From positions 709,001 through 773,000 of the forward strand of contig NZ_CP144212.1 of assembly GCF_041378895.1 (NCBI RefSeq): a stretch of 64,000 nucleotides of DNA. The letters run 5' to 3'. Shown here piece by piece: positions 4,378-42,116 of the stretch. The DNA is from Dechloromonas sp. ZY10. Lineage in GTDB: Bacteria > Pseudomonadota > Gammaproteobacteria > Burkholderiales > Rhodocyclaceae. The position numbers and the translations under genes were made by a program. Below the pieces are notes generated by a model, which was not told the origin of the DNA, ran no database searches, and saw nothing but the letters and a program-made list of their open reading frames with translations. Every line of letters begins with the position of its first letter. Within the stretch, counting starts at the first letter, position 1.

Positions 4378-5071
4378 GCGGCGGTAGCCAGCGGCAGCGG
4401 CGGAAAATCCATTCGGTCAGCCACAGGCTGAAATAGGTCGCAAACCAGCCGAACAGGCAGTCGGATAAAAAGTGGCCGCCGGGGCTCATCCGCACCAGCG
4501 CCATGTAGCCGGCAAAGGTGATGCTGACGAGCAGCCAGCGGCGGCGCACGGCCGGCGCGCCGAGCCAGCCGAAGGCCATGACGAAGGCGGCGGTGGCGAC
4601 ATGGCCGCTGACGAAGGAGCAATTCTGCTGGCACTGGTCGGCTGGAATGAACGCCGGAGTAAAGCGCAACTGGCCGCCGAATTGCTCGATATTGACTGGC
4701 CGGGTGCGGCCCGAATGTTCCTTGAGCGTTGCATCGACCAGCAATACCGGGCCGAGCAGGGCGCCGGCGAGGAGAAAGGCAAAGTGGGCGCGACGTCTCC
4801 GCAGGCTGGCAAAGCGTGGCAGCAGACCGAGCAGCAGCAATAGCGCCAAGCCCAGCAGCAGGCCCTGGCCAAGGCGTGGCAGGCCGCGGTAGGGGATCGC
4901 CAGAATCAGGTCGTCGCGGCCGAACAGCCAGCGTCCGTCGCCCTGGTAGAACAGGCTGCTGGTCCAGAGGTCTAGCTGCGGAAAGGCGACGAAGAGAAGT
5001 GCCAGCAGCGTCGCCACGGCGAGCGCCCGGCGCAGTTCAGTAGCCCTTGAAGTCGCTGAGCAGCCAGACAT
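4355..5071 (-). CDS. PAP2-family membrane phosphatase
   Basis: This membrane protein of about 238 residues carries the PAP2 phosphatase motifs in order: KEHSGRTRP, CSFVSGHVA and RMSPGGHFLSD. They supply the Lys/Arg, Ser-Gly-His and His/Asp active-site residues. Hydrophobic segments surround them, so the active site should face the periplasm. Known relatives remove phosphate from undecaprenyl diphosphate or lipid A (LpxE/PgpB types). The start is uncertain: ATG 5071 overlaps the end of the upstream glycosyltransferase by 35 bases, and a longer frame reaches 5173. It is the third gene of a GT2-GT39-PAP2 operon, which suggests a role in lipid-linked sugar or lipid A chemistry. Confidence 0.8.
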   Translation of the reverse strand: MSGCSATSRATELRRALAVATLLALLFVAFPQLDLWTSSLFYQGDGRWLFGRDDLILAIPYRGLPRLGQGLLLGLALLLLLGLLPRFASLRRRRAHFAFLLAGALLGPVLLVDATLKEHSGRTRPVNIEQFGGQLRFTPAFIPADQCQQNCSFVSGHVATAAFVMAFGWLGAPAVRRRWLLVSITFAGYMALVRMSPGGHFLSDCLFGWFATYFSLWLTEWIFRRCRWLPPLSPADPR

Positions 5072-6515
5072 GCAGGTCTCGCGTGGTGTGGGCGTCGAGC
5101 GGCGCGCGCAGCGTCGCCAGTTTTTGTTGCCCGGTGACATAAGGCAGGAATTGCTCGCCCGGTTCGTTTTCACTGATCAGCAGCAGGTCACGGCCGCGAT
5201 AGGGGCGCAGGTCGGTACTTAGTTTGTAATGATCGCTGGCCTCGCCTTTGGGGTTCCAGCTGGCAGCCAGCGGTTTTTGGGCGCGCAGTTCGTAGAGCAT
5301 GTGCGCAAGCAAGGTCCGGTTGTCGGCGACCAGCACCGCTTGCGGATGCGCCGTAACCAGCGGCTGCAACTGGCGACCGAGTTCGTCCCAGCCTTGCGCT
5401 CGGGTGAAGGGGCTGGATTTTGCCGGGTTTGGGGCGTGGACCGTGGAAAGCACGAGCGGCCAGTGGTAAACCAGCCCGACCAGCGCCAGGTTGAGGCTCA
5501 GTGCGATGACCAGCAGCCGTTGCCGTTCGCGTGCCAGCAGCCAGGCGACGATGGCAACCAGGGCCGGAGCGAACGCCGGTGCAGCCCAGTTGGCGTTGGC
5601 GGTACTTTTCATTGCCTGCAGCGAAACCACCGCCCATAACGGGAGCGCGAACCATAGCAGCAGCCGGCTGCGCTCGTCTTGCCAGGTCTTTTTCGCCTGC
5701 GCCAGCAGAATGAAAAAGACCGAGCCGAAAATCGGACCGAAGGACAGCCATTGCGCGGCCCAGAACTCGGCCAGCGATTTGAGGCCGCCGGCCGCCTGGC
5801 GCTTGAGGGTGATGTCGGCGGTGTGCTTGAGGGTGGGGAAATCGTGGATGACGTTCCACCACAGATTGGGCGCCAGCAGCAGGATTGCAAGCAATGCGGC
5901 CAGCCACGGACCGGCCGTTTTCAGCCGGGCCCGGTGGAAACAGAGCAGGTGCAGGAAGGCAGCGCCGAGGAAGGCGGCCATCGTGTACTTCGAGAGCAGG
6001 CCGAAGCCGCCGATCAGGCCGAGCAGCAACCAGTCGGTCGGGGCGTTGCGGTCAAGCGCACGCAGGTAGGCCCACAGCCCGAGCGTCCAGAACAGCGTCA
6101 GCAGCGCATCGGTTGAGACGAACAGGCCGAGCCAGGAAAACATCGGCAGGGTCAGCACCGCTAGTGCCGACCAGGCGGCGACGCGGGCATCGTAGAGGCG
6201 GCGGGCAATCGCCCAGCAGGCGGAGGCAGCCAGCGGATAGCAAAGCATGGCCAACGCCTTGACGCCGAGAATGCCGTCGCCGAACAGTGCCGTCGAGGCG
6301 GCGATCAGCGCGGCGATCCCGGGGGGCTTGGAGAAATAGCCCCAGTCGAGCGCCTGCGCCCAGGTCCAGTACTGCGCTTCGTCGACGTAAAGGGTGATCC
6401 CGAGTTGCGGGATCACGGCCAGGCGCCAGGCCAGCAGCAGAAACGCTGCCAGCAGCAAGGCGCTGGCGGTGGGAAAGGATTTTTCCCCGTTTTTACGGTC
6501 GACCGTGAAAATCAC
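5037..6515 (-). CDS. ArnT/PMT-like polyprenol-dependent glycosyltransferase (GT39/GT83)
   Basis: The protein has 492 residues and many membrane helices. It has the family N-terminal loop with acidic residues, YVDEAQYWTWAQALDWGYFS, and the KPPG motif after it. Such enzymes move a sugar from a polyprenyl phosphate carrier to lipid A or another acceptor on the periplasmic face. Its start (ATG 6515) overlaps the stop of the upstream GT2 gene by four bases (ATGA), so the two are translationally coupled. The first codons lie inside the dispersed CACGGTCGACCGTG-type palindrome and encode MIFTVDR. The donor sugar cannot be told from sequence. Confidence 0.85.
   Translation of the reverse strand: MIFTVDRKNGEKSFPTASALLLAAFLLLAWRLAVIPQLGITLYVDEAQYWTWAQALDWGYFSKPPGIAALIAASTALFGDGILGVKALAMLCYPLAASACWAIARRLYDARVAAWSALAVLTLPMFSWLGLFVSTDALLTLFWTLGLWAYLRALDRNAPTDWLLLGLIGGFGLLSKYTMAAFLGAAFLHLLCFHRARLKTAGPWLAALLAILLLAPNLWWNVIHDFPTLKHTADITLKRQAAGGLKSLAEFWAAQWLSFGPIFGSVFFILLAQAKKTWQDERSRLLLWFALPLWAVVSLQAMKSTANANWAAPAFAPALVAIVAWLLARERQRLLVIALSLNLALVGLVYHWPLVLSTVHAPNPAKSSPFTRAQGWDELGRQLQPLVTAHPQAVLVADNRTLLAHMLYELRAQKPLAASWNPKGEASDHYKLSTDLRPYRGRDLLLISENEPGEQFLPYVTGQQKLATLRAPLDAHTTRDLHVWLLSDFKGY
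6494..6507. repeat. Dispersed palindrome, 13/14 match
   Basis: TACGGTCGACCGTG matches the 14-base core CACGGTCGACCGTG at 13 positions. It is flanked by T-rich and A-rich arms that extend the symmetry to about 22 bases (6490-6511). It covers codons 2-8 of the ArnT-like gene. Confidence 0.8.
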
Positions 6516-7531
6516 TCGTTTTTCAGCCAGCCGGCGTCGTCGGCGAGCGGTGCTTCCGGGCGGGCGGTGTAAGAACGCACGGCGCCCGATTCGAAGTAAG
6601 TGCGGGCCAGCAGTTCGGCGAGCACGCCGGTGGTGATGAAATGCAGGCCAGCGATCAGGCCGCCGATCCCGACGATCAGCAGCGGCCGGCCGCCGATCGA
6701 TTCGCCGAGGCCGAACTTGACCCAGGCCAGCCAGGTCAGGATCAGCCCGGACAGGCCGGTCAGGCCGAGGCCGATGCCGCCGAAGAAGTGGCCGGGGCGG
6801 GCGCGGAAGCGCATGAAGAAATACACCGCGATCAGGTCGAGGATGACGCGGAAGGTGCGCGAAATGCCGTACTTGGAGACACCGGCGGTACGCGCATGGT
6901 GCGTCGTCGGCTCTTCGGCGATGCGGCGCGGGGTGGTTACCGTCGCCATCCAGGCCGGGATGAAGCGGTGCATTTCGCCGTACAGGCGCACCCGCTTGAT
7001 CACGTCGGCACGGTAGGCCTTGAGGCTGCAGCCGTAGTCGCGCAGCTTGACGCCAGTGAGATGGGCAATCAGCTTGTTGGCAATCTTCGACGGAATCTTG
7101 CGCAGGAACAGGCCGTCCTGGCGATTCTTGCGCCAGCCGGCAACCAGATCGAGGTTTTCGTTGAGTAGCCGGGCAACCATGCGCGGGATGTCGATCGGAT
7201 CGTTCTGCAGGTCGCCGTCCATGGTCACGATCACGTCGCCGCGCGCCGCGTCCACGCCGGCTTGCATCGCTGCGGTCTGCTTGTAATTGCGCGTCAGTTC
7301 GACGATCCGCACGTGCGCGCCGTATTCGCCGGCGGCGGCCAGGCCGCGCTCAACGGTGGCGTCGCTGCTGCCGTCGTCGACCAGGACCAGTTCCCAGGGG
7401 TGGGCATAGGCGGCCAGCGCTTCGTGCACGCGCTTGACCAGCGGGAGCACGTTGTCTTCCTCGTTATAGACGGGGACCACCACGGACAGGCGGTGGGCGG
7501 GCATGGCAGGACAAGCGGGGAGTGCGGTCAT
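6512..7531 (-). CDS. Family 2 glycosyltransferase, polyprenyl-phosphate sugar synthase type (ArnC/DPM1-like)
   Basis: This 339-residue protein has an N-terminal GT-A domain with LSVVVPVYNEEDNV, LVDDGSSD and the metal-binding TMDGDLQNDP. Two membrane helices follow near the C-terminus (about residues 245-310). This is the layout of ArnC, GtrB and dolichyl-phosphate mannose synthase, which load a sugar onto a polyprenyl phosphate in the inner leaflet. The next gene is an ArnT-like transferase that would use the product. An alternative start at 7504 gives MPAHRLSVVVP and aligns better with the family. Confidence 0.87.
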   Translation of the reverse strand: MTALPACPAMPAHRLSVVVPVYNEEDNVLPLVKRVHEALAAYAHPWELVLVDDGSSDATVERGLAAAGEYGAHVRIVELTRNYKQTAAMQAGVDAARGDVIVTMDGDLQNDPIDIPRMVARLLNENLDLVAGWRKNRQDGLFLRKIPSKIANKLIAHLTGVKLRDYGCSLKAYRADVIKRVRLYGEMHRFIPAWMATVTTPRRIAEEPTTHHARTAGVSKYGISRTFRVILDLIAVYFFMRFRARPGHFFGGIGLGLTGLSGLILTWLAWVKFGLGESIGGRPLLIVGIGGLIAGLHFITTGVLAELLARTYFESGAVRSYTARPEAPLADDAGWLKNE

Positions 7532-7626
7532 GGTCGGCAGGGGGCGTGAGGCCGGAGAAGCAAAGCGCGGATTTTACCGTGAATCGGTGTCCGGCATCGC
7601 GGCGGCGAGGCTGGGGAGGTACTACC

Positions 7627-7655
7627 AAAGCAAACCGCCCGGACCAGCCGGGCGG
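7627..7655 (-). terminator. Intrinsic terminator of argJ
   Basis: On the minus strand, CCGCCCGG (7655-7648) and CCGGGCGG (7642-7635) form an 8-bp stem with a 5-base loop, followed by TTTGCTTT. It lies 17 bases beyond the argJ stop codon. Confidence 0.85.
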
Positions 7656-7671
7656 CTCAGGGGCTGCGGGT

Positions 7672-8898
7672 TTAGCTACGGTAGTCGGCGTTGATCTTGA
7701 CGTAATCGTAGGAGAAATCGCAGCTATAGACCTTGGCGGCGGCCGCACCGCGTCCGAGGTCGACGCGGACGGTGATTTCGGCCTGCTGCATCACGCGGGC
7801 GCCGTCGGCCTCCTGATAGCTGGCGGCGCGGCCGCCCTTTTCGGCGACCAGCACATCGTCGAGCCAGACCCGGATGCTGTCGACGTCGAGGTCGCCGATG
7901 CCGGCATAGCCGATGGCGGCGAGGATCCGGCCGAGGTTGGGGTCGGAGGCGAAGAAGGCGGTCTTGACCAGCGGTGAGTGGCCGATGGCGTAGCCGACCT
8001 TGCGGCATTCCTCGGCATCCTTGCCGCCTTCAACGGCGATGGTGATGAACTTGGTCGCGCCTTCGCCGTCGCGGACGATGGCTTGTGCCAACTCGACGGA
8101 CACCGCAATCAGCGCCGCCTTGACCTCGGCCCAGCCGGCTTCACTGCCATCGGCAAAAGCGAGGCCGGACTGGCCGGTGGCGATCATCACGAAGGAATCG
8201 TTGGTCGAGGTGTCGCCATCGACGGTGATGCAGTTGAACGAGGCGTCGGCGGCTTCCTTGACCAGCGCATCGAGCAGCGGCTGGGCGATGCCGGCGTCGG
8301 TGGCGAGGTAGCCGAGCATGGTTGCCATGTTCGGCTTGATCATGCCGGCACCCTTGGAGATGCCGGAAATCGTGATTTCCTGGCCGTTGACCGTGAATTT
8401 GCGCGAAGCGGCCTTGGCGACCGTGTCGGTGGTCATGATCGAGTGCGCGGCAGCATGCCAGTGGTCGGCGGCGAGGTCGGCACGGGCGGCAGGCAAACCG
8501 GCGATCAGGCGGTCGACCGGCAGCAATTCGAGAATCACGCCGGTCGAGAAGGGCAGCACTTGTTCCGGGGCGATGCCCAGCGTTTCGGCCACGGCGGCGC
8601 AGCTCGCTTGCGCTGCAGCCAGGCCGGGTTCGCCGGTGCCGGCGTTGGCGATGCCGGTGTTGATCACCAGCGCGCGGATTTCGCGGCCGCTGGCCAGGTG
8701 CTTGCGGCACAGCTGCACCGGCGCGGCGCAGAAGCGGTTCTGGGTGAACACGCCGGCCACCGTCGCTCCCGGTGCCAACTCGATCAGGGTCAGGTCGCGG
8801 CGGTTCTTTTTGCGGATTTCGGCTTCGGCGGTACCAAGACGCACCCCGGCGACCGGGAAAAGTTGCTCGGCGGAAGGCGTGGTGTAATTGACGGGCAT
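7672..8898 (-). CDS. argJ: Bifunctional glutamate N-acetyltransferase / N-acetylglutamate synthase
   Basis: This 408-residue protein recycles the acetyl group between N-acetylornithine and glutamate in arginine synthesis. The self-cleavage and nucleophile site is visible as [15 protein letters not shown], where the Thr in ATML becomes the N-terminus of the beta chain. [13 protein letters not shown] is a further family motif. The frame is open to 8961, but the start at 8898 ([16 protein letters not shown]) matches the usual ArgJ N-terminus. It lies downstream of secA on the same strand, 102 bases apart, and ends in an intrinsic terminator. Confidence 0.96.
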
Positions 8899-31051: not shown

Positions 31052-31723
31052 TCAAAAGGCCAGGCAAACGGTGTAAGGCTGGGCATCGATGATTTGTGCG
31101 GTAGCCACCGGGTTGGCTGCCGTATTCTGATTGATTCCCTGGTTGCTCATTGTCTGCAAGGCACCACCGGCGGTATTGCCGTCATCCATTGCAATATCCA
31201 ACTGGCGGGCGTGGCGGCCGAGAATGCCTTGCGAACAGACGACATGGCTGCCGCGCAAGCCATTGATCGGGGAGTTGGCGCCGCTGCTGATGCCGATGAT
31301 GCCGCTGTCGGCATTGCGTGGCAGGTAGTCGGCCGCAGCAGGATCGGTCGGGCCGGTAGCCAACCCGGCCAGGCGGATATGCTGCCAGAACAAGCGGCTT
31401 TCGTCTGCGGCGTTGCTGCTGTTCCAGGCGCCGTTGATCTGGCCGTTGCCGAGGCAGTTTTCGCAACTTGCCAGTATCGCACCGGAAACATGCTGCGGGG
31501 CCGCCGGATCGTCGCCAGGCAGGGACTTGAATTTATCCTGATAGCCGTAGAGATAGAGAGGGATGGTGCGGAAGTCTTGGGCAAAATTCTTGACTTTGGC
31601 GCTGGCGATCAATTCCTGCCCCTTGAAAACCCCGCCCAGGAGTAATCCGACCACCACCAGTACGATGGCGATTTCGACCAGAGTAAAGCCGGCTTGGCGG
31701 CGGAAAAACAGGATGGGGGACAT
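31052..31723 (-). CDS. Type IV / type II prepilin-like protein
   Basis: This 223-residue protein has a class III signal: a short basic leader, then G|FTLVEIAIVLVVVGLLLGG with Gly before the cut site and Glu5. After the helix comes YGYQDKFKSLPGDDPAA, a pattern widespread in pseudopilins, and a Cys pair (SCENC). It would be cut by a prepilin peptidase, none of which is encoded here, and packed into a pilus or pseudopilus. It is the last gene of the nine-gene secretion or pilus operon, 20 bases after the previous prepilin. Confidence 0.85.
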   Translation of the reverse strand: MSPILFFRRQAGFTLVEIAIVLVVVGLLLGGVFKGQELIASAKVKNFAQDFRTIPLYLYGYQDKFKSLPGDDPAAPQHVSGAILASCENCLGNGQINGAWNSSNAADESRLFWQHIRLAGLATGPTDPAAADYLPRNADSGIIGISSGANSPINGLRGSHVVCSQGILGRHARQLDIAMDDGNTAGGALQTMSNQGINQNTAANPVATAQIIDAQPYTVCLAF

Positions 31724-31743
31724 GACAGTCTCCAGTAAAGGCC

Positions 31744-32391
31744 TCAGGACAGCCGTCCGACTGCGGCCAGTCGGCTCTTGAGCAGGGCCGGGCTGAGCCA
31801 GAGCAGCAGGTCGTCAAAGTCGGGCGCGGGATCTCGGTGGATGAAAATCAGGTTGGCGTCGGCATTTTCGCCTTCATCGCTGCTGGCGCCGGGTATCTGG
31901 CGGCCGTCCCGCCACGCCCCGGCACTCCGCTGGCCGTGGCAGACGACGACCAGCGGCAGGTTGTCGGCAAGGTCGCCGCTGGCATTCTGAGCGGCTTTGA
32001 TCCGCGCGTTGCCGACGCTTTCCAGGGTGATCGCGCTGCCCAGCGGATCAACCGGCAGCTGGGTAAAGCGCCGATCTGCGTAATAAGTCAGCTGTTGTCC
32101 CCAAGGGTCGCTGGCTGGAAGCGCCAGTGTCGCCCAGGGGATGATGCCGTGTTCCCGGGTGCAATCCTCGCGCCCGCCCTCGGACGGTGCGGCGGGGCAG
32201 GGCAGGCGGCCTTCACTGAGGACGAAGCCGAGCAGGCTGTCGCGAACCTGGTCGAGCAACTGCCGGGCTTCCTGGCGGGCAGCGATTTCACGTTGAGTGC
32301 CGAGTAGCGGCAAGGAGGCTCCGGCGAGCAGTGCCAGCACAACCAGGACCAGCGAGAGTTCGAGCAGGGAAAAAGCGGCTTGGTGTTTCAT
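31744..32391 (-). CDS. Prepilin-like protein with Ala before the cleavage site
   Basis: This 215-residue protein starts MKHQAAFSLLELSLVLVVLA. The prepilin helix and Glu5 are clear, but the residue before Phe is Ala rather than the usual Gly, so processing may be slower or may need a special peptidase. The globular part holds GRLPCPAAP, DCTREHGIIPWATLALPASDPWG and LPLVVVCHG, motifs of a pilin-associated family shared with the large neighbour protein. The start overlaps the large gene by four bases. Confidence 0.82.
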   Translation of the reverse strand: MKHQAAFSLLELSLVLVVLALLAGASLPLLGTQREIAARQEARQLLDQVRDSLLGFVLSEGRLPCPAAPSEGGREDCTREHGIIPWATLALPASDPWGQQLTYYADRRFTQLPVDPLGSAITLESVGNARIKAAQNASGDLADNLPLVVVCHGQRSAGAWRDGRQIPGASSDEGENADANLIFIHRDPAPDFDDLLLWLSPALLKSRLAAVGRLS

Positions 32392-34811
32392 GGTGTGCTG
32401 CCCGATGGAGGTGATGCAGCAAAAAGGTCATTACTTACGGTCGACCGTGGCGAACGCTCAAAAACCACGGATGGATAGAGCCCCTGACCATCGCGTCCAG
32501 GATCGGCGTTGCGGCCTTCGAGGTAGTCGCCAATTCTCTGGCTGGGCCGGCTCTGCCCGGCCAGCGCACCGCCGGCGGCGACCACCACCAGAGGTAGGTC
32601 TTTGCGTGGGCCGAGATGTAGCCGCCCAGGGGCCTTGGCCTGGCGTTCACCGAGTTGATAAAACATGCTGTCCGACCAGCGGTTGCGAGCCCACCAGCCG
32701 GGGCTGTCGGAGGTTGCGCGCAGGAAATCGCAGGCGCGACTTCGCCAGGTGAGCGGCCAGGCTTGGGCGGCGGTGCTACCAATCGCCGGCATCAGGGTGG
32801 TAAGCAACGCCTGGCTGCGGACGAGAAGTTGCTCGCTGCTGGCGAGGGCCGCTGCCAGTGCTGCTTCGGCTTTTTGCTGGTTGCGCCGGGTCGGTGACTG
32901 CTCGGCGGTGCTGCGGGCATCGGCTGCGCGCTGTTCAAGTTCCAGTTGCGCGATGCTGCTCGCCAGCAGGCTGTCCTCACGGGGGAGCGGGCTGCTGCCA
33001 GGACTGGCTGGGGCACGAGCCTGGCGACTCAGCTGCTGGCTGTACGTTTCGATCACGTTGGCCAATTGCAGGAGGGGTGGCTCGCTGGCGGCGAGGGCTT
33101 GCGCATAGGGAGCAATCGCCTGCTGAAGCGGTCGGGGGGTGGCCTGGTCTTGGGCAATGAATGCAGCCAGTGTGCTTTGTCGATAATTCAGCCAATAATT
33201 CAGCGAACTGACACTGAGATTGTGCTCGACTTGTTCCAGTGCCTGCAGGCTATGCACCAGGTGCTGCAGGCTGGCCTGTGCGGTGGCCAGGTCGCCGCTG
33301 GCCAGGGCAAGCAGAGCCCGCTCCCGCTCGGCCAGAAGTCCCGGTGGGCCGCTATGCAACTGTTCGAGTAGTTCCCGGGTGAGTTGGCTTTCGGCTGGAG
33401 TCGCCTGCGGGTTGGCCAGGAGTTGTGTGCGGCGGGCTTCGAGATCGGCCGCGAGGAGTTCGCTGCGCCGGTTGCTCAGTGCCTGTTGCAGATGGTCACT
33501 GGCGGCCTGGGCCAACTGGGTGGATGCGGCAGTGCCCGTGCAGAGTTGGCCGATGCTATCGCTCGCAGCGGCCAGTGGTGCCGTCAGCTCCGGATGTTCG
33601 CTGTAACTCAGCGCCAGGTGACTGGCCAGTGTGCACAGCCGGGAAGTGCCGGGTGGGTCATTGGCGAAGCGAGGGAACTCGCGCAACTCGCCAATCAGGG
33701 TGGCGGCCCATGGATCCAGTCCGCTGTCTGCCAACAACCCGGGCAGGCGTTGCCAGAGCGGAGATGCGGCTTGCGCGGTGGTGGTGATCGCGCTGCCTTC
33801 GCTGCGACTGATCCGCTGATTGCTGCTGGCCCGGTCTACCACCTCGGCCAGTTGGGCGCTGGCCTGGCGTGCGTCGTAGGCGGCGAGAGCAAGTGGGCGA
33901 CTGCTGGTGAAAGTGGCTTCGGCAAAGTTGCGCAGGCTGGCAATCAACTCGCTGCGGGCAGCGTGCCAGGCTTGCTGCTCGCCGCTGGCTGGATTTGGCG
34001 GCAATGCCGCGCGGGTATCGGCGAGTTGTTGCCGGGAGGTCGCTAGGGTTTGCCACGGGGCAGGCTCCGGCTGGGTCTGTGGCACTCGGCCGAAACGGCT
34101 GCCGCTTTGCCCGCGTCCGTCAAGGCTGGCGAGAGGGGCGGGCCACGGGTAGTTGTCGGTGCCGGCATGGCGCTGCAGGCATCGATGGACCTGATTTACG
34201 ATCCGGGTTTCGACGGCAGCCATTAGTTCCCCTCGGCTAATCGCCAGCACCCGGTCGTTTCCGGAAAGCGCCTCTAGATAATCGCTAGCCTGTTGCGAAG
34301 GGCGTTGCTGGCCGGGAAGCGCTACCCCGGGGCCGATCAGCAGGGCGGCAATCTGCGACTGGCCTGCATGGCTGAGGCCGGTGGGCGTGTCGCTGTTGAT
34401 CGGCTCGGAGTTGTCGTCGTCGTAAAGGCCGGGGGCGACAACTAGCCACAGGCGTTCGCCGCTGCGGTCGCGCAAGGGGGGCTGTGCCAACGTTGCCCAA
34501 GGTAAGCGGCCAATATCGGTGGGGCAACGGTTGCGTGTCAGATTGTCGGATTTGCCGTCATCCGGGTAATTGCGTAAACCCGCATCGTTGGTCAGCAGGT
34601 CCGGACAAGGCAGGCTTCCGGGGCGGTTGTCGTCGCTCTGGGCCCGGGCAAGCAAGGCTTCGCGGGCTTGCTGCAGTGCCCGAGCCTCCTGCTCGACCAG
34701 GGTAAGGCGCCACTCTGGCGATGTGTTGCCAAGCCACAGGCCGCCGGCCAGCAGTGGAGGCAGGGTGAGGGGGAGCAGGCGTCCGGCCTGCCGTTTCAGT
34801 GAGCTTGCCAT
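32388..34811 (-). CDS. Large pilus-operon protein with pilin-associated domains and a long helical insert
   Basis: This 807-residue protein starts at MASSLKRQAGRLLPL with one membrane segment. Residues about 63-200 form a complete LPCP...IGRLPWATL...GPGVALPGQQRP domain like that of the neighbouring prepilin. A second copy seems to begin at NYPWPAPLASL...FGRVP (about 220-245). It then breaks for some 450 mostly helical, Ala/Leu/Gln-rich residues and resumes at WWARNRWSDSMFYQLGE...VVVAAGGALAGQSRP (about 706-807). No enzyme motif is seen. The domain layout is my reading. It may be an adhesin or tip protein of the pseudopilus. It overlaps the PilO-like gene by 16 bases. Confidence 0.7.
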   Translation of the reverse strand: MASSLKRQAGRLLPLTLPPLLAGGLWLGNTSPEWRLTLVEQEARALQQAREALLARAQSDDNRPGSLPCPDLLTNDAGLRNYPDDGKSDNLTRNRCPTDIGRLPWATLAQPPLRDRSGERLWLVVAPGLYDDDNSEPINSDTPTGLSHAGQSQIAALLIGPGVALPGQQRPSQQASDYLEALSGNDRVLAISRGELMAAVETRIVNQVHRCLQRHAGTDNYPWPAPLASLDGRGQSGSRFGRVPQTQPEPAPWQTLATSRQQLADTRAALPPNPASGEQQAWHAARSELIASLRNFAEATFTSSRPLALAAYDARQASAQLAEVVDRASSNQRISRSEGSAITTTAQAASPLWQRLPGLLADSGLDPWAATLIGELREFPRFANDPPGTSRLCTLASHLALSYSEHPELTAPLAAASDSIGQLCTGTAASTQLAQAASDHLQQALSNRRSELLAADLEARRTQLLANPQATPAESQLTRELLEQLHSGPPGLLAERERALLALASGDLATAQASLQHLVHSLQALEQVEHNLSVSSLNYWLNYRQSTLAAFIAQDQATPRPLQQAIAPYAQALAASEPPLLQLANVIETYSQQLSRQARAPASPGSSPLPREDSLLASSIAQLELEQRAADARSTAEQSPTRRNQQKAEAALAAALASSEQLLVRSQALLTTLMPAIGSTAAQAWPLTWRSRACDFLRATSDSPGWWARNRWSDSMFYQLGERQAKAPGRLHLGPRKDLPLVVVAAGGALAGQSRPSQRIGDYLEGRNADPGRDGQGLYPSVVFERSPRSTVSNDLFAASPPSGSTP
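32436..32449. repeat. Dispersed palindrome, 13/14 match
   Basis: TACGGTCGACCGTG differs from the core by one base. It lies in the last codons of the large pilus-operon gene, encoding PRSTV on the minus strand, in a tail with no conserved motif. Confidence 0.75.
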
Positions 34812-35326
34812 CGCGGCCAGAGCAACAGGCAGTGAGCGATCAGCGCCTCGGCGTCGGCTACGACCCGGCAGTGTTCCGGACGGGCCGCAGTTCCTTGCAG
34901 CCAGTCTCCTAAATGGGTGAGCAAGTCGCCAGCCTGGGCGATGCGAATTTCCAGTTCCAGGCGATGCCAGGTAGCGGTGCTCCGTTGTCCGGGCGTAAGG
35001 CTCGAGGGGGGGCTGGTCTCCGAGGCTGCAATGGTTAGCCATTGTCCAGAAGGTGGACGTTGGGGTGGGGCGGGAGGCTCAGGCAATTCCTGCTGGTGCA
35101 GAAAAAGACGTTCCTGCCGGTAGTCGGCGAGCAGTCGGGTGTGCCGCTCTCCCGTGGCAGCCAGAGTTTCCAGCATCCTCTCTTGTTGCAGGGCAAAAGC
35201 CTGGCTTGCCTGCTGCCAGGTGGTGGCCCCATCCAGTCGTTGCCCAGCGTCGGCGAACAACAGTGCGGCGGCAATCTGCAGCAGGACGCAGGCTAGCAGG
35301 CGTGGGCGAACTGGTCGCGGGGTCAT
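34796..35326 (-). CDS. PilO/MshJ-like inner-membrane protein
   Basis: This 176-residue protein has one N-terminal membrane segment (LLACVLLQIAAALLFADAG), then a coiled coil (QQASQAFALQQERMLETLAA) and a small periplasmic domain. This is the layout of PilO, GspM and MshJ, which align the inner-membrane platform with the secretin. The sequence match alone is weak; position after the GspL/PilN-like gene supports it. GAGGAGCAACC precedes the ATG at 35326, which overlaps the previous stop by four bases. Confidence 0.62.
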   Translation of the reverse strand: MTPRPVRPRLLACVLLQIAAALLFADAGQRLDGATTWQQASQAFALQQERMLETLAATGERHTRLLADYRQERLFLHQQELPEPPAPPQRPPSGQWLTIAASETSPPSSLTPGQRSTATWHRLELEIRIAQAGDLLTHLGDWLQGTAARPEHCRVVADAEALIAHCLLLWPRWQAH

Positions 35327-36588
35327 GGTTGCTCCTCGTTGAGGATTTGGAGTCGCCAAGAGGAGATTGGCTGATCGTGCGGTCCAAGCAGCGGAATACC
35401 GTGGGCGCAGTCGACATCGGGGGCGTTCCGGGCTGGTGCTGCGAGCCGAACCTGTAGTTCTCGCTGCGGCCAGCGCCAGCTGAGTTCCTGCAGACGAGCG
35501 AGGCAGGGCCCGGGCTGTTTCGCCCAGGTTGCCAGTGCCTGTCTGGCCGGTTTTCCATCGGCATGAGCGGTGAGCATTTCTTGCAGCAAATCGGCGGTTG
35601 CCGTTGGCAACAGACCATGCGGGTGGTGCTGGGAGGGAAGGCTGTTGCTGCTGATTGTTTGCCGGGCGGTATCGAACGCGGTTCTCGCATGCCAGTTGAA
35701 GCCCAGACTGGCTGCCAGCAACAGGCCGCTGGCAGCCAGTCCGATTCTTTCGCCACGGGCGCGCCGGGCTGCCCGGCGAAATTCCGGAGGAGAGAGATCT
35801 GCAGCAGGCCGGCTCCGGGCTGGGCACAAGGCATGCAGCAGCGCTTGTTCCCATTTTTCCGCCGTGCAGGGGCTGATCTGCCAATCCGTACCGCTTGAGC
35901 CCAGCTTCTGAGGCGAGAGTTCTTCGCTCAAAGTGGGCGGAATCAGGAGCAGCGGTGGGTCGGTATTCTCGTCGCTTGGATGGAGGCGTAGGTATTGCAG
36001 CAGGCGATCACTTTCGTCGAGGAGCAGGGGGATCGGCGGCTGATCTTCCGGGAGCGGGATTTGCCGGCTGAATCCGGGTTGTCCGTGGAAAAGAATGAAT
36101 TGCCGCAACACGCCATCGGCGAGGATTTGCAAGGCGCCACTGAAGCGCGCTGGAATCAGGCCGCTGGTGTCGAGCAGTGCGCTGAGTGGATGGATGCCCG
36201 TCGCCTGCTCGGCATGGAGTTGCAGGGTGCCTAGCCAGGGGTCAATCATGCGCGCATCGATTGAGGCAAGGCGCCAGGGGCCGTGATGACGGGATGCCGG
36301 GGGAGCGAATACGGTCCGCAATCGACGATCAGGAAAATTGTCGCGTAGTCGTTGCTGCAGGAAGGCCCGGCGGTCGAGCCAGGAAAGAGGTGTCGGGCTG
36401 GCCGGCAGTTCGGCATGCTCTTCTCCAGGCAGATCGAGCAATAGCCGCCACGATCTGCCGGCATGGCGACTCAGATAGGCAGCGAAAGCAGCATGGCCTT
36501 CGGGTGTCGGACTGAATACGCACGGGGGGCTGGTTGTTCGCTGCCAGGCGCGTAATTGCTTGGCAGTCAGCCATAGCCGCAGGGTCAT
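35323..36588 (-). CDS. GspL/MshI/PilN-like inner-membrane protein
   Basis: This 421-residue protein has a cytosolic part of about 285 residues that could take a PilM/GspL actin-like fold. One membrane helix (IGLAASGLLLAASLGF, near residue 290) and a periplasmic domain of about 120 residues follow. This is the GspL or fused MshI layout that links the ATPase to the inner-membrane complex. Direct motif evidence is weak, and the call rests on topology and gene order. It has a GGAGG ribosome site inside gspF, and ATGA overlaps at both ends. Confidence 0.62.
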   Translation of the reverse strand: MTLRLWLTAKQLRAWQRTTSPPCVFSPTPEGHAAFAAYLSRHAGRSWRLLLDLPGEEHAELPASPTPLSWLDRRAFLQQRLRDNFPDRRLRTVFAPPASRHHGPWRLASIDARMIDPWLGTLQLHAEQATGIHPLSALLDTSGLIPARFSGALQILADGVLRQFILFHGQPGFSRQIPLPEDQPPIPLLLDESDRLLQYLRLHPSDENTDPPLLLIPPTLSEELSPQKLGSSGTDWQISPCTAEKWEQALLHALCPARSRPAADLSPPEFRRAARRARGERIGLAASGLLLAASLGFNWHARTAFDTARQTISSNSLPSQHHPHGLLPTATADLLQEMLTAHADGKPARQALATWAKQPGPCLARLQELSWRWPQRELQVRLAAPARNAPDVDCAHGIPLLGPHDQPISSWRLQILNEEQP

Positions 36589-37802
36589 CGGAGTCCTCCG
36601 CCGGAAACCAGCAATTGTTGTAATGGCGAGATCACGCTCCAGGTGGTGGCGATCAGTACCAGGCCGAGCAACATAGTGAGTAGCGGTGGCAGCAGATCCT
36701 GCAGTTGTTGCATGCGGGCCTGGGTGTGCAGGGTGAAATGCTCGGCCAGGGTATGCAGGCTTTCGCCAAGGCGCCCGGCCTGCTCTCCGATGGCAAGCAG
36801 GCGCAGGAACAGGGTGGGGAAAGGCGAACTGAAGGAGGGGGCGGAGCGATTGGCAAAAGCAATGCTCAGGCTCTGGCCGCTGCTGATTTTTTCGATTGCA
36901 TGTGCACAGGTGGAGCGCAGGTGTGCGTTGCGCAGCACGTCGCGGCTGATGCTCAGAGCGGCCAGGAGTGGCAGCCCGGCAGCGTAAAGCAGACCCAGGG
37001 TGCGACAGAAACGGGCCAGTTCGAAATGCAGCCAGAGCGGACCCAGTAGCGGCAGGTCGAGCAGTTTGCGATGGAGAGGGCGGCGCAGGGTATCCAGGTG
37101 CAACAACAGGATGGCGCCGGGAAGCAGGATGCAGCCAAGGAGCAGCCAGGGCGTGGGTGTTTGTAGCCATGCCAGGGCGTGCAGCAGCCAGGTAGTCGAT
37201 GCCGGGAGTGCAGTCCCCTGGCGGTATGCGAATTGCTGTAATTGCGGTGCGGTGTGGAGAATCAGAAATCCGCAGGCAGCAAGACAGACCAAGCCGCTGA
37301 GCAGAGGCCCGGACAGGTTTTGCCGCAACTGCTGACGAAATTGTTCCAGCCAGCGGCGATAGCGATACTGGGAGGCACAGGCTTCTGCCAGATCGCCGCT
37401 GTATTCGGCGGCACGGATGCCCGCGATCAAGCCTGGGTCGAAATGCCGGGATTGCAACTGCAGTGCTTGTGATAGCGTCAGTCCGTGGCGCAGGTCATGG
37501 CCAAGCCGTTGCAGAATGCCTTTGAGTTGTCGGCTGGCGGATTCGCTGCGGCAGATTTCGATCGTTTCCAGTAGTGGCAGGCCGGCGCCCAGCAGTTGCT
37601 CCCACTGGAAGCACAGTTCGGTGACCTGGAGTGAGTTCAGTCGGGGTTCAGGCCATGGCATCGGGCAGGCGAATAGCAGTGTTGCCGCCTGCTCGGCAAG
37701 TAGTTGTTCGAGGTCCTGCCGGTCATGGGCTGGCAGCCTGCCGTGGCTGAGCCGGCCGTCGTTGTGCAGAGCGCGATAGAAATGGGGGCGGAGTTGGCTC
37801 AT
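36585..37802 (-). CDS. GspF/PilC/MshG-like inner-membrane platform protein
   Basis: This 405-residue protein carries two copies of the GspF domain: FQWEQLLGAGLPLLETIEIC in the first and FCRTLGLLYAAGLPLLAALS in the second. Three membrane regions, including LTMLLGLVLIATTWSVISP at the end, fit the family. It anchors the pilus base and turns with the ATPase. The start at 37802 overlaps the stop of the ATPase gene by four bases; the longer upstream frame is a shadow of that gene. Confidence 0.9.
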   Translation of the reverse strand: MSQLRPHFYRALHNDGRLSHGRLPAHDRQDLEQLLAEQAATLLFACPMPWPEPRLNSLQVTELCFQWEQLLGAGLPLLETIEICRSESASRQLKGILQRLGHDLRHGLTLSQALQLQSRHFDPGLIAGIRAAEYSGDLAEACASQYRYRRWLEQFRQQLRQNLSGPLLSGLVCLAACGFLILHTAPQLQQFAYRQGTALPASTTWLLHALAWLQTPTPWLLLGCILLPGAILLLHLDTLRRPLHRKLLDLPLLGPLWLHFELARFCRTLGLLYAAGLPLLAALSISRDVLRNAHLRSTCAHAIEKISSGQSLSIAFANRSAPSFSSPFPTLFLRLLAIGEQAGRLGESLHTLAEHFTLHTQARMQQLQDLLPPLLTMLLGLVLIATTWSVISPLQQLLVSGGGLR

Positions 37803-39400
37803 GGCTCGAGATCGATCACGCGAGCAGCCTCGGCGAGTGTGGTCAGTCCGGCCGCAGCCAATTGGCGGGCCGATTCGGCGAGTGGCCGGTAGCCATTGGC
37901 CGCCGCGGCCTGGCGCAGTTGTTCGGAAGGTGCTCCTGCTGCAATCAGGTCGGCAAGGGCTGGGGTCAGGCGCAGGATTTCCATGACCGCCAGTCGCCCA
38001 CGGTAGCCCTGCCAGTCGCAATCCTGACAGCCATGCGCCTGCCAGGCCGCATCCGGGTCGGCCAACTCGGCTACAGGGCAGAGCTGTCGGCAGTGTGGGC
38101 ACAGGCGGCGCAGTAAGCGTTGGCCGATGATGCCGTTGAGGCTGCTGGCCAGGGTGGCCCGCGAAATTCCGAGGTCAAGCAGCCGGGGGAGTGCCGCCAG
38201 CGCCGAGTTTGCATGCAGCGTGGTGTAGACCTGATGGCCAGTCAGGGCTGCGCAAAAAGCCATTTCGGCGCTGGCCGTGTCGCGAATTTCGCCAACCATG
38301 ATGATGTCCGGGTCCTGGCGCAGTAGCGAGCGAATCCCATTGGCGAAGTCGAGGCGAACTGCATCGCAAACCTGGGTTTGCCGGATCAGCGGTAAAGGGT
38401 GTTCGACCGGGTCTTCGAGCGTCATGGTGTTGACCCCGGTATGGCTGACCATGTCGAGCAGCGAATAGAGGGTGGTTGTTTTTCCGCTGCCGGTCGGGCC
38501 GGTAACGATCAAAATGCCTTCGGGGCGTTGGCGGACCCGCTCAAGCAATTGCTCGCTGGCAGTATCGAGTCCGAGTTGCCGCAGCGATAACAGGCTGCGC
38601 TTGCGATCGTGGATGCGCAGAACCAGGTTTTCGCCGTGCAGGGTAGGCAGGCTGGCGACCCGGAAATCAACCTCGCGCCCGGCGATGCGTTGAGTGAAAC
38701 GACCATCCTGGGCACTACGGCTGTCAGCGATGTCCAGGCCGGCCAGCAGTTTCAGACAGATCAGCAGCGGTTGCCAGATGCGCTCCGGGACTAGCCGGAT
38801 GACGCGAAGCCAGCCATCAATCCGGTAGCGAATCCGGGCAAAGCCGGCCTCCGGTTCGAAATGCAGGTCGGAGGCTTCGAGGCGGACGGCATCGGCAATC
38901 AGGGCGTCGAGCAGGGGGCGGATTGCCGGTCGCTCGCCGCGTACCGGCTTGAATGAGAGTTGCTGCTCGGCATCAAGTTGCGCCAGTAGGCGGTCAATTT
39001 CCTCGCTGTAGCCATAGTGCCGGTCAATGGCCTGCTCGATTTCGGCCAGGGAGGCAGCATGGAGCTGGATTTCGCTGCCGGCTGGCAAGTGCTGACGGAG
39101 TTGCTCGCGCAGACCGAGGTCGGCGGGATGTTCGGCAAGCAGGGAAAATTGCGCATTGTCCGGCGCGCTGGCAAAGGGAAATATTTTCAGGCGGACGGCC
39201 AGCGCTCTTGGTATCCACTGTTCGATGCGGCGGTCGTGGCGGTGTCGATGCGGATCGAAGCAAGGCGGCGCGGCGGTGGTTTGCGGCAGCTGAGTGTGCG
39301 CGGTAATCGGCGCAACGCCCGGGCCGGAGATAGATGCGGCGGCATCCGGGGAATTCCCGGTTTCAGTTGTCGACCGTGGGAAAAGGTGGTGTTCTTTCAT
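37799..39400 (-). CDS. GspE/PilB/MshE-type assembly ATPase
   Basis: This 533-residue ATPase has Walker A VTGPTGSGKTTTLYSLLD, the Asp box TLEDPVEHPLPLI, Walker B LLRQDPDIIMVGEIRD, and the His box GHQVYTTLHANSA. The tetra-Cys zinc site (CPHC and CQDC) follows near residue 450. It drives addition of pilin subunits. The N-terminal region of about 130 residues before the conserved core is less conserved. GGAGGTATGCG precedes the ATG at 39400, which overlaps the TPR gene stop by four bases. Codons 8-12 (PRSTT) lie on a half-copy of the dispersed palindrome. Confidence 0.94.
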   Translation of the reverse strand: MKEHHLFPRSTTETGNSPDAAASISGPGVAPITAHTQLPQTTAAPPCFDPHRHRHDRRIEQWIPRALAVRLKIFPFASAPDNAQFSLLAEHPADLGLREQLRQHLPAGSEIQLHAASLAEIEQAIDRHYGYSEEIDRLLAQLDAEQQLSFKPVRGERPAIRPLLDALIADAVRLEASDLHFEPEAGFARIRYRIDGWLRVIRLVPERIWQPLLICLKLLAGLDIADSRSAQDGRFTQRIAGREVDFRVASLPTLHGENLVLRIHDRKRSLLSLRQLGLDTASEQLLERVRQRPEGILIVTGPTGSGKTTTLYSLLDMVSHTGVNTMTLEDPVEHPLPLIRQTQVCDAVRLDFANGIRSLLRQDPDIIMVGEIRDTASAEMAFCAALTGHQVYTTLHANSALAALPRLLDLGISRATLASSLNGIIGQRLLRRLCPHCRQLCPVAELADPDAAWQAHGCQDCDWQGYRGRLAVMEILRLTPALADLIAAGAPSEQLRQAAAANGYRPLAESARQLAAAGLTTLAEAARVIDLEP

Positions 39401-40236
39401 CGCATACCTCCGCTAGCAAGTGCCGTCAGTCGTTGCCTGGCCTGCTCGAGTGGGAAGCGGTGAGGATGTGTCTGCGCCTGTCGCAGGGCTTCCTGGTATG
39501 CCGCTGCGGCTGCTTTCGGTTGGCCTTGATGGTCCTTGGCAACCGCCAGGTTGTACCAGGTGTCGGGAGCATCGGTGGCGCGTCGCAGGCTTTTTTCGAA
39601 GGCTTGGGCGGCAGTTTTCCAGTCGGCTTCCTCGCCGTGCGCAACACCTTCGGCAAAGTGCAGTGTCGGACTGTCCGGATACAGGGTGCCCAGTAACTGG
39701 AGCATTCGGGCCGATCCCCGCGTATTTTCTGCCAGCCAGCCGATGGCCTGGCTTTCCGGGGTTTCACCGGTGCCATGGTTGGCTTGGCGGTGACGCTCCC
39801 GGGCGCGATCAGTAGCGCCTTGAGCGCTGTCGAGCAGCGCTAGCGCCCGCAGGCTGGGCGCATGCCCGGGATACTCGCGTAGAAGTGTTTCGAGCATTTC
39901 TCGGGCAGTATCCAGGTCGTGCTGGCGCAATGTCTGGCGTACTCCTTCCCAGTGTTGCTGCAACCGGGCTTCCAGATTTGTTGGGGCCGGTCGTGGGCGG
40001 GGTGGCTCCGGTGCTTCGACGGTTTCTGGCTGTGACAAAGGCTGGGCTGGTGTGGCCAGCGGTAACGCTGGTAAGGTCAGTGTTGGTGCAGCCTGCGTAG
40101 GCCATGTGGGCGGTGGCATGGACGTGGGTAACTCGTCGCCAAAGTAGGCGACGCTTGCCGCACCGCAAGTCATTCCCGCCGCCGTCAGCAGCAGGGCGTG
40201 GCGCCAGGGCATCGCGATGCTTCCCGATCCGATCAT
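39397..40236 (-). CDS. TPR-containing pilus assembly protein (MshN-like)
   Basis: This 279-residue protein has an N-terminal membrane segment (HALLLTAAGMTCGAASVAYF) and a long Pro/Thr-rich linker. TPR-like repeats fill the second half (LRQHDLDTAREMLETLLREY, WYNLAVAKDHQGQPKAAAAA). MSHA-type operons encode a similar protein (MshN) between secretin and ATPase, as here. It probably spans the periplasm and helps secretin assembly or stability. It overlaps the secretin and ATPase genes by four bases each. Confidence 0.78.
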   Translation of the reverse strand: MIGSGSIAMPWRHALLLTAAGMTCGAASVAYFGDELPTSMPPPTWPTQAAPTLTLPALPLATPAQPLSQPETVEAPEPPRPRPAPTNLEARLQQHWEGVRQTLRQHDLDTAREMLETLLREYPGHAPSLRALALLDSAQGATDRARERHRQANHGTGETPESQAIGWLAENTRGSARMLQLLGTLYPDSPTLHFAEGVAHGEEADWKTAAQAFEKSLRRATDAPDTWYNLAVAKDHQGQPKAAAAAYQEALRQAQTHPHRFPLEQARQRLTALASGGMR

Positions 40237-41975
40237 GGGACGGTCCCCTTTTTTGGCTGGCTGGGTAGATGCTCCCGCCAGTCGCGGTAATCGCCTAGCA
40301 GGCTGGCTTGACGGATCAGTAGCGGGCGGAGAAAAACCACCAACTCGGTTTTCCGGCGTTGTTGCTGGCGATTTGTGAATATTTCGCCTATGGCCGGCAG
40401 TTCTCCCAGTCCCGGGATTCGCTTGTTGCGCTCATCGCTGGCATCTTCCATCAGCCCACCCAGCACTGCGATCTGACCGCTATCGATGCGCATGATGGAT
40501 TCAATTTCGCGGGTACGGATGACTGGTACCAAGTTTTCAATACCATTTTTGCGCAGGTCAGGGTTGGGGTCGGGAACTTCCCTGCCGATGCTGGTGATCG
40601 TTGGCCGGATGTTGAGAATGATTTGTCCGTCTTCGGCAATTTGCGGGGTTACCGCCAATGTCAAACCGACAGGAATGGTTTGGGGGGTCGTGGTGTAGGT
40701 TGTCGTCGTGCCGACATTGGCGGTGGCGATAGCATCTGCCTTGACCGTAAAGTAGACATAGTTTTCGACTACTTTCAGCAGTGCACTCTGGTTGTTCAAC
40801 ACAGAAAGGCGCGGGCTCGAAAGGACGCGGGTTTGACCAAAGCTGGCGAGCAGCGAAAGCAGGGCCTCCGGGTGCTCGTTACGGGTGAATTTCAGATTGA
40901 CCCCGGTACGCAACGGATTGCCGAGGAATTCGAATAGGCCGCCGGCTCCGAGTCGGCTCCAGTCAATCCCTTGCTCGTAACCATCGTGCAGGGCAACTTC
41001 GACTACTGTGGCTTCGATCAGAACCTGGCGGCGGGCGGCGAGCAGGACCCGCTGGATGAATTCGCGAATCTTGTCGTGCTGGCGCTGGTTGGCGCGCACG
41101 CCGATAACCCCGCTTTCCTGGTGAACGATGATGGCGGCAGCTTCGCGCACCGTACTGCGCCGGACGCGCAAATTGCTGCTGGATTGGCTGTCGGAAAATG
41201 CCGGAGCGTTTTGCTGGGGGCCAGGGGAGCGCTGGCGCGAGGCTGGACGGGGAGGGAAATGCGGCCCGTTGTTTTGCTGCACCTGTTGTTGTTCGACCTG
41301 GGTTTCGCTTGACCCATCCGGCAATGGCTGGTCATGTTCGCGCAGGATGTCTTTCAGGTTGCGCTCCAGGTTCTCCCAGAATTGATGTCGACTGCTATTT
41401 TCGATCCTGCTGCTGGACAGGTTGTTGCTGCTTGGTGCAGCACCCGGCAAGGGAGTTGTAGCCGGGAGGGTTGGGGGGCCGCCGGCTATCTGGGCGCTGC
41501 TGCCAACCAGGGTATTGGCGCTACGGCTGAGGTTGGGATAGTCCACCTGGTAGTAGGCGAGATAGGGTGAGTCCGGTAGTACCGACAGCGTGTTTTCGCT
41601 GAATTCAAAGCGCAATTCATGTTGTCGCGCCAGGCGTTCAAGAATCAAGGGAAGAGGTTGATCAACTGCATGCAGGCTGACCTTGCCGCTGATGGCCGGG
41701 TGTAAGTCAAGGTTTAGCCGTGCGTCGCGGGCGAGGGCCAGCAGCAATTCGGGCAGGTTTTGATTGTTGACCGTAATGCTGAGACGCAATTGTTCCTGCT
41801 TGGTCCGCAAGGGCGGCAACTCCAGGCTTTCCCGCAGGAGTGGCGGAATCCCCGGGGTGCTCGGCGCAGTCTCGGCGGCCGGCGTCAGGTGGCCACGACC
41901 GGAGCTTGCGCCGTATTGCGGCGCGCAGGCCTGGCAGCACAGGATCAATGTGATCAGGAGGGCGGGCTTGAACAT
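40233..41975 (-). CDS. Secretin of an MSHA-like / type II-like system
   Basis: This 580-residue protein has a signal peptide ending in a possible lipobox (LILCCQACAPQ). An STN/N0-type domain (LPELLLALARDARLNLDLHP) and an N1 domain (AAAIIVHQESGVIGVRANQR) follow. The C-terminal secretin domain has RVLSSPRLSVLNNQSALLKV, QTIPVGLTLAVTPQI and RIDSGQIAVLGGLMED. A Gln/Ser/Pro-rich linker of about 110 residues separates STN from N1. The layout is closest to MshL/PilQ-type outer-membrane rings. It is the first gene of the nine-gene operon. Confidence 0.93.
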   Translation of the reverse strand: MFKPALLITLILCCQACAPQYGASSGRGHLTPAAETAPSTPGIPPLLRESLELPPLRTKQEQLRLSITVNNQNLPELLLALARDARLNLDLHPAISGKVSLHAVDQPLPLILERLARQHELRFEFSENTLSVLPDSPYLAYYQVDYPNLSRSANTLVGSSAQIAGGPPTLPATTPLPGAAPSSNNLSSSRIENSSRHQFWENLERNLKDILREHDQPLPDGSSETQVEQQQVQQNNGPHFPPRPASRQRSPGPQQNAPAFSDSQSSSNLRVRRSTVREAAAIIVHQESGVIGVRANQRQHDKIREFIQRVLLAARRQVLIEATVVEVALHDGYEQGIDWSRLGAGGLFEFLGNPLRTGVNLKFTRNEHPEALLSLLASFGQTRVLSSPRLSVLNNQSALLKVVENYVYFTVKADAIATANVGTTTTYTTTPQTIPVGLTLAVTPQIAEDGQIILNIRPTITSIGREVPDPNPDLRKNGIENLVPVIRTREIESIMRIDSGQIAVLGGLMEDASDERNKRIPGLGELPAIGEIFTNRQQQRRKTELVVFLRPLLIRQASLLGDYRDWREHLPSQPKKGTVP

Positions 41976-42002
41976 GTCTGATGATTTGACTTTTATGTAC
42001 TT

Positions 42003-42031
42003 GTTTTATGACATTGTTTTAATTATTTCAA
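42003..42031 (-). promoter_or_regulatory. Candidate promoter of the pilus/secretion operon
   Basis: On the minus strand TTGAAA (42031-42026) and TAAAAC (42008-42003) are 17 bases apart in an AT-rich island, 28 bases before the secretin start. The -10 is weak. It is the only AT-rich promoter-like region ahead of the nine-gene operon. Confidence 0.4.
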
Positions 42032-42116
42032 GTTGATGCCCTTGGTCTTTTTGGCGTTGGTGCCGCGTGAGTCGGCTTCTGCTAAAATCGACAGCTTGCC
42101 TTTGGAGGGGACTGCC

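Follow-up and report, generated by a model that had tools for sequence, protein, structure and literature searches.

Type IV filaments are used for adhesion, secretion, DNA uptake and motility. Few families are recognized: type IVa pili (T4aP), type IVb pili (T4bP), MSH, the type II secretion system (T2SS), Tad, Com and the archaeal filaments. Here we describe a nine-gene operon of Dechloromonas sp. ZY10, the ZY10 copy, located on the minus strand at positions 31052..41975 of a 64,000-nucleotide stretch of contig NZ_CP144212.1 (positions 709,001 to 773,000; hereafter the window, in whose numbering the positions below are given unless stated otherwise). The nine genes likely specify a complete apparatus for assembling a type IV filament of a separate family, the sister of MSHA. 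No account of it was found in the open-access literature, subscription papers and preprints lying outside that scope; part of its loci may be among the 884 systems that PMC6668835 classes as 'generic', automated annotation already labels some of its secretins MshL, and the family is widespread but, it appears, undescribed.

The closest described system is the MSHA pilus of the Vibrio, Shewanella and Aeromonas type, which shares with the operon an MshL-type lipoprotein secretin adjoining an MshN-like TPR protein, followed by MshE and MshG, an MshM-like ATPase (found in most relatives of the ZY10 copy), a PilD drawn from elsewhere in the genome and sister secretins. It differs in that the operon's ATPase, platform protein and secretin belong to a separate clade, PilM and PilN are fused in one gene, the PilN, PilO and K genes come after the platform gene and not before the secretin, the prepilins comprise LPCP heads and a K-like giant, and no complete cyclic di-GMP (c-di-GMP) motif is present. 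The T2SS (Gsp/Xcp) resembles the operon in its GspL-type fusion and probably in a K-like prepilin with a helical insertion, which in the operon is predicted, whereas the operon has no GspC or GspN-type genes, a secretin and an ATPase outside GspD and GspE, and another prepilin complement. With T4aP (PilB/C/D, PilMNOPQ) the general machine plan and the PilD are shared, but PilB, PilC and PilQ lie in other clades, the operon has no PilT, the pilins differ and the genome has its own T4aP. Finally, the ComZ/GspK-type tip pilins have a large domain inserted in the pilin head, as is predicted for the giant, but differ from it in that the giant's insert is a variable helical domain in an LPCP sequence family, for which no solved relative was found.

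In maximum-likelihood trees of the ATPase, of the platform protein and of the secretin, the operon's family comes out each time as one clade with 100/100 support, and MSHA, PilB/C/Q and GspE/F/D each form separate clades as well; adding alphaproteobacterial and non-proteobacterial ATPases leaves the picture for the ATPase clade unchanged. The secretin clade is the sister of MSHA MshL (100/99) and does not lie within it, the union of the platform protein with MSHA is recovered at 82/70, and for the ATPase, where the family and MshE are separate 100/100 clades and the ZY10 protein lies outside MshE, a union with MSHA is not rejected (approximately unbiased test, p-AU 0.206). Since the secretins are sisters and the ATPase and platform tolerate a union with MSHA, the family is to be placed as a sister of MSHA and not as a member of it, a relationship also supported by the shared MshM-like ATPase. 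Judged by sequence, then, the operon represents a type IV filament family of its own next to MSHA, and its assembly ATPase, platform and class III signal prepilins, with the prepilin peptidase of the genome, place it in the type IV filament superfamily. The sequence-only reading, which had suggested something MSHA-like yet possibly distinct and would have yielded to an ATPase and a secretin firmly inside a T2SS or T4aP clade, is borne out on this point, as these two proteins lie outside GspE and GspD, and the ATPase, platform and secretin outside PilB, PilC and PilQ.

The operon consists of nine intact open frames running from 41975 down to 31052 and spanning 10.9 kb, in the order (5' to 3') MshL-type secretin, MshN-like TPR protein, ATPase, GspF-type platform, GspL-like protein (gene 5), PilO-like protein, 807-amino-acid (aa) giant, prepilin 1 and prepilin 2. 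Recomputed junctions show six 4-nt ATGA overlaps (secretin/TPR, TPR/ATPase, ATPase/GspF, GspF/PilN-like gene 5, PilN-like/PilO-like and giant/prepilin 1), a 16-nt overlap at PilO-like/giant and a 20-nt gap between the two prepilins; genes, order and overlaps are exactly as noted earlier from the sequence. GC content at third codon positions is 0.62-0.75 in the nine genes, near that of the neighbour genes, as expected for translated genes. Pfam and NCBIfam recognize the secretin, the TPR protein, a T2SSE ATPase with a weak MshEN match, a T2SSF protein and two N_methyl prepilins; neither collection gave an informative family match for genes 5, 6 and 7, and searches of PHROGs and of PDB sequences with the odd genes gave no matches. 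The features are the following.

40233..41975, minus strand: MshL-type lipoprotein secretin, 580 aa, first gene (PF00263, E 1.4e-39; TIGR02519 MshL, 236.5 bits against a cut-off of 250.2; lipobox LCCQAC seen by eye).
39397..40236, minus strand: MshN-like membrane-anchored TPR protein, 279 aa (TPR families; relatives have it in the same slot, right after the secretin).
37799..39400, minus strand: assembly ATPase of the GspE/PilB/MshE superfamily, 533 aa (PF00437, E 1.3e-113; Walker A GPTGSGKTTT, Walker B, CxxC pairs).
39002..39265, minus strand: remnant of the MshEN N-terminal domain of the ATPase (weak MshEN match at aa 46-133; alignment to relatives and to the genome's own MSHA MshE).
36585..37802, minus strand: GspF/PilC/MshG-type inner-membrane platform protein, 405 aa, very divergent (PF00482, E 6e-39).
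35323..36588, minus strand: gene 5, GspL-type, with a predicted PilM-like actin fold, long membrane-spanning helix and PilN-like tail, 421 aa (AlphaFold2 and Foldseek).
35776..36588, minus strand: predicted actin-like PilM/cyto-GspL domain, aa 1-271 of gene 5 (AlphaFold2 model and fold search).
34796..35326, minus strand: PilO/GspM-like bitopic protein, 176 aa (position, size and relatives in the same slot; no Pfam or NCBIfam match).
32388..34811, minus strand: the giant, a K-like prepilin of 807 aa, probable filament tip pilin (N-termini of relatives, head homology, AlphaFold2).
34077..34634, minus strand: first half of the LPCP pilin head of the giant, aa 60-245 (LPCPD...GRLPWATL motif; strands 100-192).
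32793..34058, minus strand: helical insertion domain of the giant, aa 252-673 (all-helical in the AlphaFold2 model; family length variation).
32412..32696, minus strand: second half of the split pilin head of the giant, aa 706-800 (strands 716-799).
31744..32391, minus strand: minor prepilin 1 with LPCP head, 215 aa (N_methyl above cut-off; paralogue of the head of the giant).
31052..31723, minus strand: prepilin 2, candidate major pilin, 223 aa, GFTLVEIAIVLVVVGLLLGGVFKGQELI (N_methyl).
41976..42032, no strand: site occupied in same-genus relatives by an MshM-like AAA+SPOR ATPase, empty in ZY10, with the divergent Mla operon next (comparison with relatives).

The gene order is constant in 94 loci including that of ZY10, the 93 others each holding both key genes, once over-long starts of open reading frames are allowed for (they account for six seeming deviations), and its recurrence in 93 other loci excludes chance. 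Relatives of the giant were found in 157 of the 399 genomes of the order, with identical gene order in all 20 of these loci that were inspected. A strict ATPase profile (E at most 1e-200) is matched in 189 of those 399 genomes and in 53 of 273 other sampled genomes of the class, with one copy each, and a secretin search in named genomes reached Azonexus, Dechloromonas, Zoogloea, Accumulibacter, Gallionella, Methyloversatilis, Sulfuricella, Pseudoduganella and others. Scores against the family's own profiles are bimodal, secretins of the family exceeding 600 where MSHA secretins reach about 230-300, and its ATPases scoring mostly 800-1050 against 440-540 for those of MSHA. Its prevalence in the order and elsewhere in the class rules out a system specific to this lineage. 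More likely than not it is a separate family that nearly half of the genomes sampled in the order carry, as do a fifth of those sampled elsewhere in the class; it would have a major pilin of its own and a tip of two LPCP prepilins, one of them with a helical domain of anything from negligible to very large size, and would so far have been hidden behind labels such as 'MSHA-type' and 'GspE family'.

Concerning the other filament systems of ZY10, whose genome is a single 3.57-Mb contig, a complete canonical MSHA locus lies at 1.054-1.071 Mb (G000:C1:1054000-1071500; L014, L015) and contains MshE, MshG, pilins, a LamG-like giant of MshQ type, MshO, MshP, MshI, MshI2, MshJ, MshK, MshL, MshM and MshN, its MshL scoring 275.8 bits, over NCBI's cut-off. 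T4aP genes are found near 2.85 Mb (PilB-PilC-PilD) and 3.25 Mb (PilQ), Tad-type genes are also present, and the single prepilin peptidase of the genome is the PilD adjoining PilB and PilC. With MSHA, T4aP and one PilD elsewhere in the genome, the operon adds a further system to those already there. That it encodes no peptidase is no oddity, since MSH loci generally go without their own (PMC6668835). The operon's family and MSHA also occur together in genomes G336, G092, G478, G484 and G552, about 13 kb apart in G478 (L189/L190), about 23 kb apart in G552 (L187/L188), and as neighbours in Pseudoduganella (L175); this closeness hints at an old tandem duplication. Two more GspE/PilB-type ATPases of ZY10, of about 594 and 775 aa (L016, G000:C1:2225426-2226583; L017, G000:C1:2730777-2732015), stand away from other filament loci and have very long branches, and no GspF-type gene of the operon's family was detected within about 9 kb of either.

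The giant, which had appeared foreign to the standard MSHA and T2SS sets, is a prepilin-type protein, and sequence and model agree in making it a probable minor prepilin of GspK type whose head is interrupted by a predicted helical domain. In relatives its N-terminus is a GspK/PilX-like prepilin start, QRGVALWMLLVLL, with no Glu5; in ZY10 the Gly before the cleavage point is kept and the next segment is unusual (QAG-RLLPLTLPPLL). Its head is homologous to prepilin 1 (hhalign 99.9% over 212 columns). The AlphaFold2 model (pLDDT 83, pTM 0.74) shows an N-terminal helix, strands at 100-192, helices at 252-673 and strands at 716-799, the predicted helical insert comprising ~420 residues. Family members range from about 290 to 1294 aa owing to the insert in the head, which is very short or absent in the smallest relatives; the largest homologue, of 1294 aa, lies at L070:6772-10656 (G248). 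A fold search with the whole giant was filled by the helical domain and returned generic helical bundles only (talin, receptors, pore formers; best Z 13), matches that are meaningless for function. GspK, whose insert is helical, and ComZ likewise have a domain inserted into the pilin head, and for both a place at the tip has been argued (PMC6561018); from the predicted split head we infer, with good reason, that the giant sits at the filament tip. As for prepilin 2, it has the classical start GFTLVEIAIVLV, its full-length matches lie only at the operon locus in 8 of 8 genomes, and it occurs in two or three tandem copies in L061 (G023; one copy truncated), L059 (G010) and L060 (G124). Contrary to the sequence-only reading, which saw no clear major pilin, this N_methyl protein of a locus-restricted family fits the part and is the best candidate.

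Gene 5 is predicted to be a PilM+PilN fusion of GspL type. Its AlphaFold2 model (pLDDT 77, the periplasmic tail being poorly modelled) has an actin fold in the first 271 residues, which Foldseek matches to PilM (5eou, E 6e-11) and EpsL (1yf5, E 2e-8), with VIA Z of 13.9 and 13.7; after it comes a long helix expected to span the membrane. The model thus gives the cytoplasmic actin fold expected of a GspL-type bitopic protein of the T2SS. Unlike the fused gene 5, MshI and MshI2 are separate genes in the ZY10 MSHA locus and in the Aeromonas reference, and by BLASTP the ZY10 MshI, MshI2 and MshJ match MSHA loci (15, 11 and 14, respectively) and none of 105 loci of the operon's family. In the ATPases of the family the MshEN domain is kept, but, aligned to the c-di-GMP motif of PMC5013675, the Arg and Gln of motif II, which contact c-di-GMP, are lost family-wide and the first half-motif is altered in many. 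The ZY10 operon ATPase lacks the first half of the domain and with it the first half-motif, its Walker A, Walker B and CxxC pairs being intact; the genome's own MSHA ATPase MshE has a nearly complete motif. In the same-genus relative Dechloromonas sp. Dech2017 / G307 (L117 / L054) the family ATPase gene is split over two frames, possibly through inactivation or sequencing error.

Compared with its family the ZY10 copy has lost several genes. The MSH model of PMC6668835 makes MshM mandatory, and 63 of the 89 loci with enough flank have an MshM-like ATPase immediately upstream of the secretin; same-genus relatives have this AAA ATPase there, one copy with a weak C-terminal SPOR match, and the only close copy in ZY10 is in its MSHA locus. 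An MshK-like secreted protein stands between the PilO-like protein and the giant in 82 of 94 loci and is not found in the ZY10 operon. Hence the absences of MshM and of GspC/MshK remarked in the sequence-only reading hold for this copy but, as to MshM and MshK, not for the family: direct search rules out that MshM is missing from it. In same-genus relatives the last two pilin genes are separated by a class III nucleotide cyclase (PF00211, E 1e-55) and a kinase-like gene, neither found in the ZY10 operon, a pair that might provide local cyclic AMP or cyclic GMP control of the filament. In L052 the pair, at 6520-7863 (minus strand) and 4823-6508 (plus strand), consists of an adenylate/guanylate cyclase and a histidine-kinase-like protein, the latter recognized by eye with no Pfam match. 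The nearest loci in the secretin tree, L112 and L178, have neither MshM nor the cyclase/kinase pair and keep the MshK-like gene, degenerate in L112. The absence of MshM is a loss in the subclade of ZY10.

Our preferred reading is that of a machine for a filament at the cell surface. The genome's only PilD would process both prepilins and probably the giant as well. Filament growth would begin from a tip complex of the giant and prepilin 1, whose LPCP heads are paralogous, and the helical domain of the giant would be exposed at the end. The ATPase would dock on the GspL-like actin fold of gene 5 and drive the GspF-type platform, which would add prepilin 2 below the tip, the PilO-like protein bridging the inner and outer membranes and the TPR protein supporting the MshL-type lipoprotein secretin through which the filament would exit. 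At the surface the filament would likely serve attachment or contact sensing, and it would not be controlled by c-di-GMP through MshEN. Such a surface role is more likely than secretion because the secretin is close to MSHA, GspC is absent, and the full-size pilin is confined to the locus and in some genomes duplicated.

Several observations weigh against this reading. Family loci hold no retraction ATPase and no prepilin peptidase, the GspL-type fusion and the K-like tip are T2SS-like features, the fold search that the helical domain filled matched no solved pilin to the giant, and the missing MshM and MshK together with long branches (1.89 for the ATPase, 3.7 for the end branch of the platform protein) mean that the ZY10 copy might be impaired.

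The GspL-type fusion and the K-like tip prepilin with its predicted helical insert keep alive a type II-like secretion machine, in which a short periplasmic pseudopilus pushes proteins through the secretin; the best NCBIfam scores of the ATPase and platform, which are to GspE and GspF and far under the cut-offs, and the lack of a retraction ATPase nearby agree with it. We find it unlikely, given a secretin far from GspD, an ATPase outside the GspE clade, the missing GspC, and a prepilin 2 family that is larger than GspG-type pseudopilins and tandem-duplicated in some genomes. Similarly improbable is a decaying relic that makes nothing in ZY10, suggested by the loss of MshM, the MshK-like gene, the cyclase, the kinase-like gene and the first half of MshEN, by the long branches and by the degenerate K-like N-terminus of the giant: the nine frames are intact and tightly coupled over 10.9 kb, third-position GC is near that of the neighbours, the Walker A/B and CxxC motifs are retained, and the related Azonexaceae loci L112 and L178 keep the operon despite several shared losses, so that the trimmed form has persisted. 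With all frames and motor motifs intact, the ZY10 copy is read as a trimmed, fast-evolving version of the machine. An ordinary MSHA locus, reshuffled, is very unlikely and already contradicted by the trees, for although the MshL, MshN, MshE, MshG-like order, the relatives with MshM- and MshK-like genes and a relative's secretin passing NCBI's MshL cut-off at 256 bits recall one, a complete canonical MSHA locus stands in the same genome, the two systems coexist in five others with separate clades for three proteins, MshI and MshI2 are separate in the sampled MSHA loci, the prepilin set differs and MshEN motif II is lost.

With regard to its surroundings, the operon is flanked by a divergent Mla operon on one side and by a convergent kefB-type gene adjoining kdsD on the other; the kdsD/kefB flank is common to a same-genus genome and the Mla flank to Azonexus sp. 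GS9 (L178). As both flanks are shared with same-genus or near relatives, the locus was inherited in place and horizontal import of the ZY10 copy is unlikely.

Many bacteria of the environment and of activated sludge (Azonexus, Dechloromonas, Zoogloea, Accumulibacter, Gallionella) carry the family alongside MSHA and T4aP, and, if the proposed reading is true, it would be a candidate for a part in attachment and in flocs and granules. Its members also allow a single machine to be compared, as nature provides it, in forms that have and forms that lack MshM, MshK and the c-di-GMP site of MshEN.

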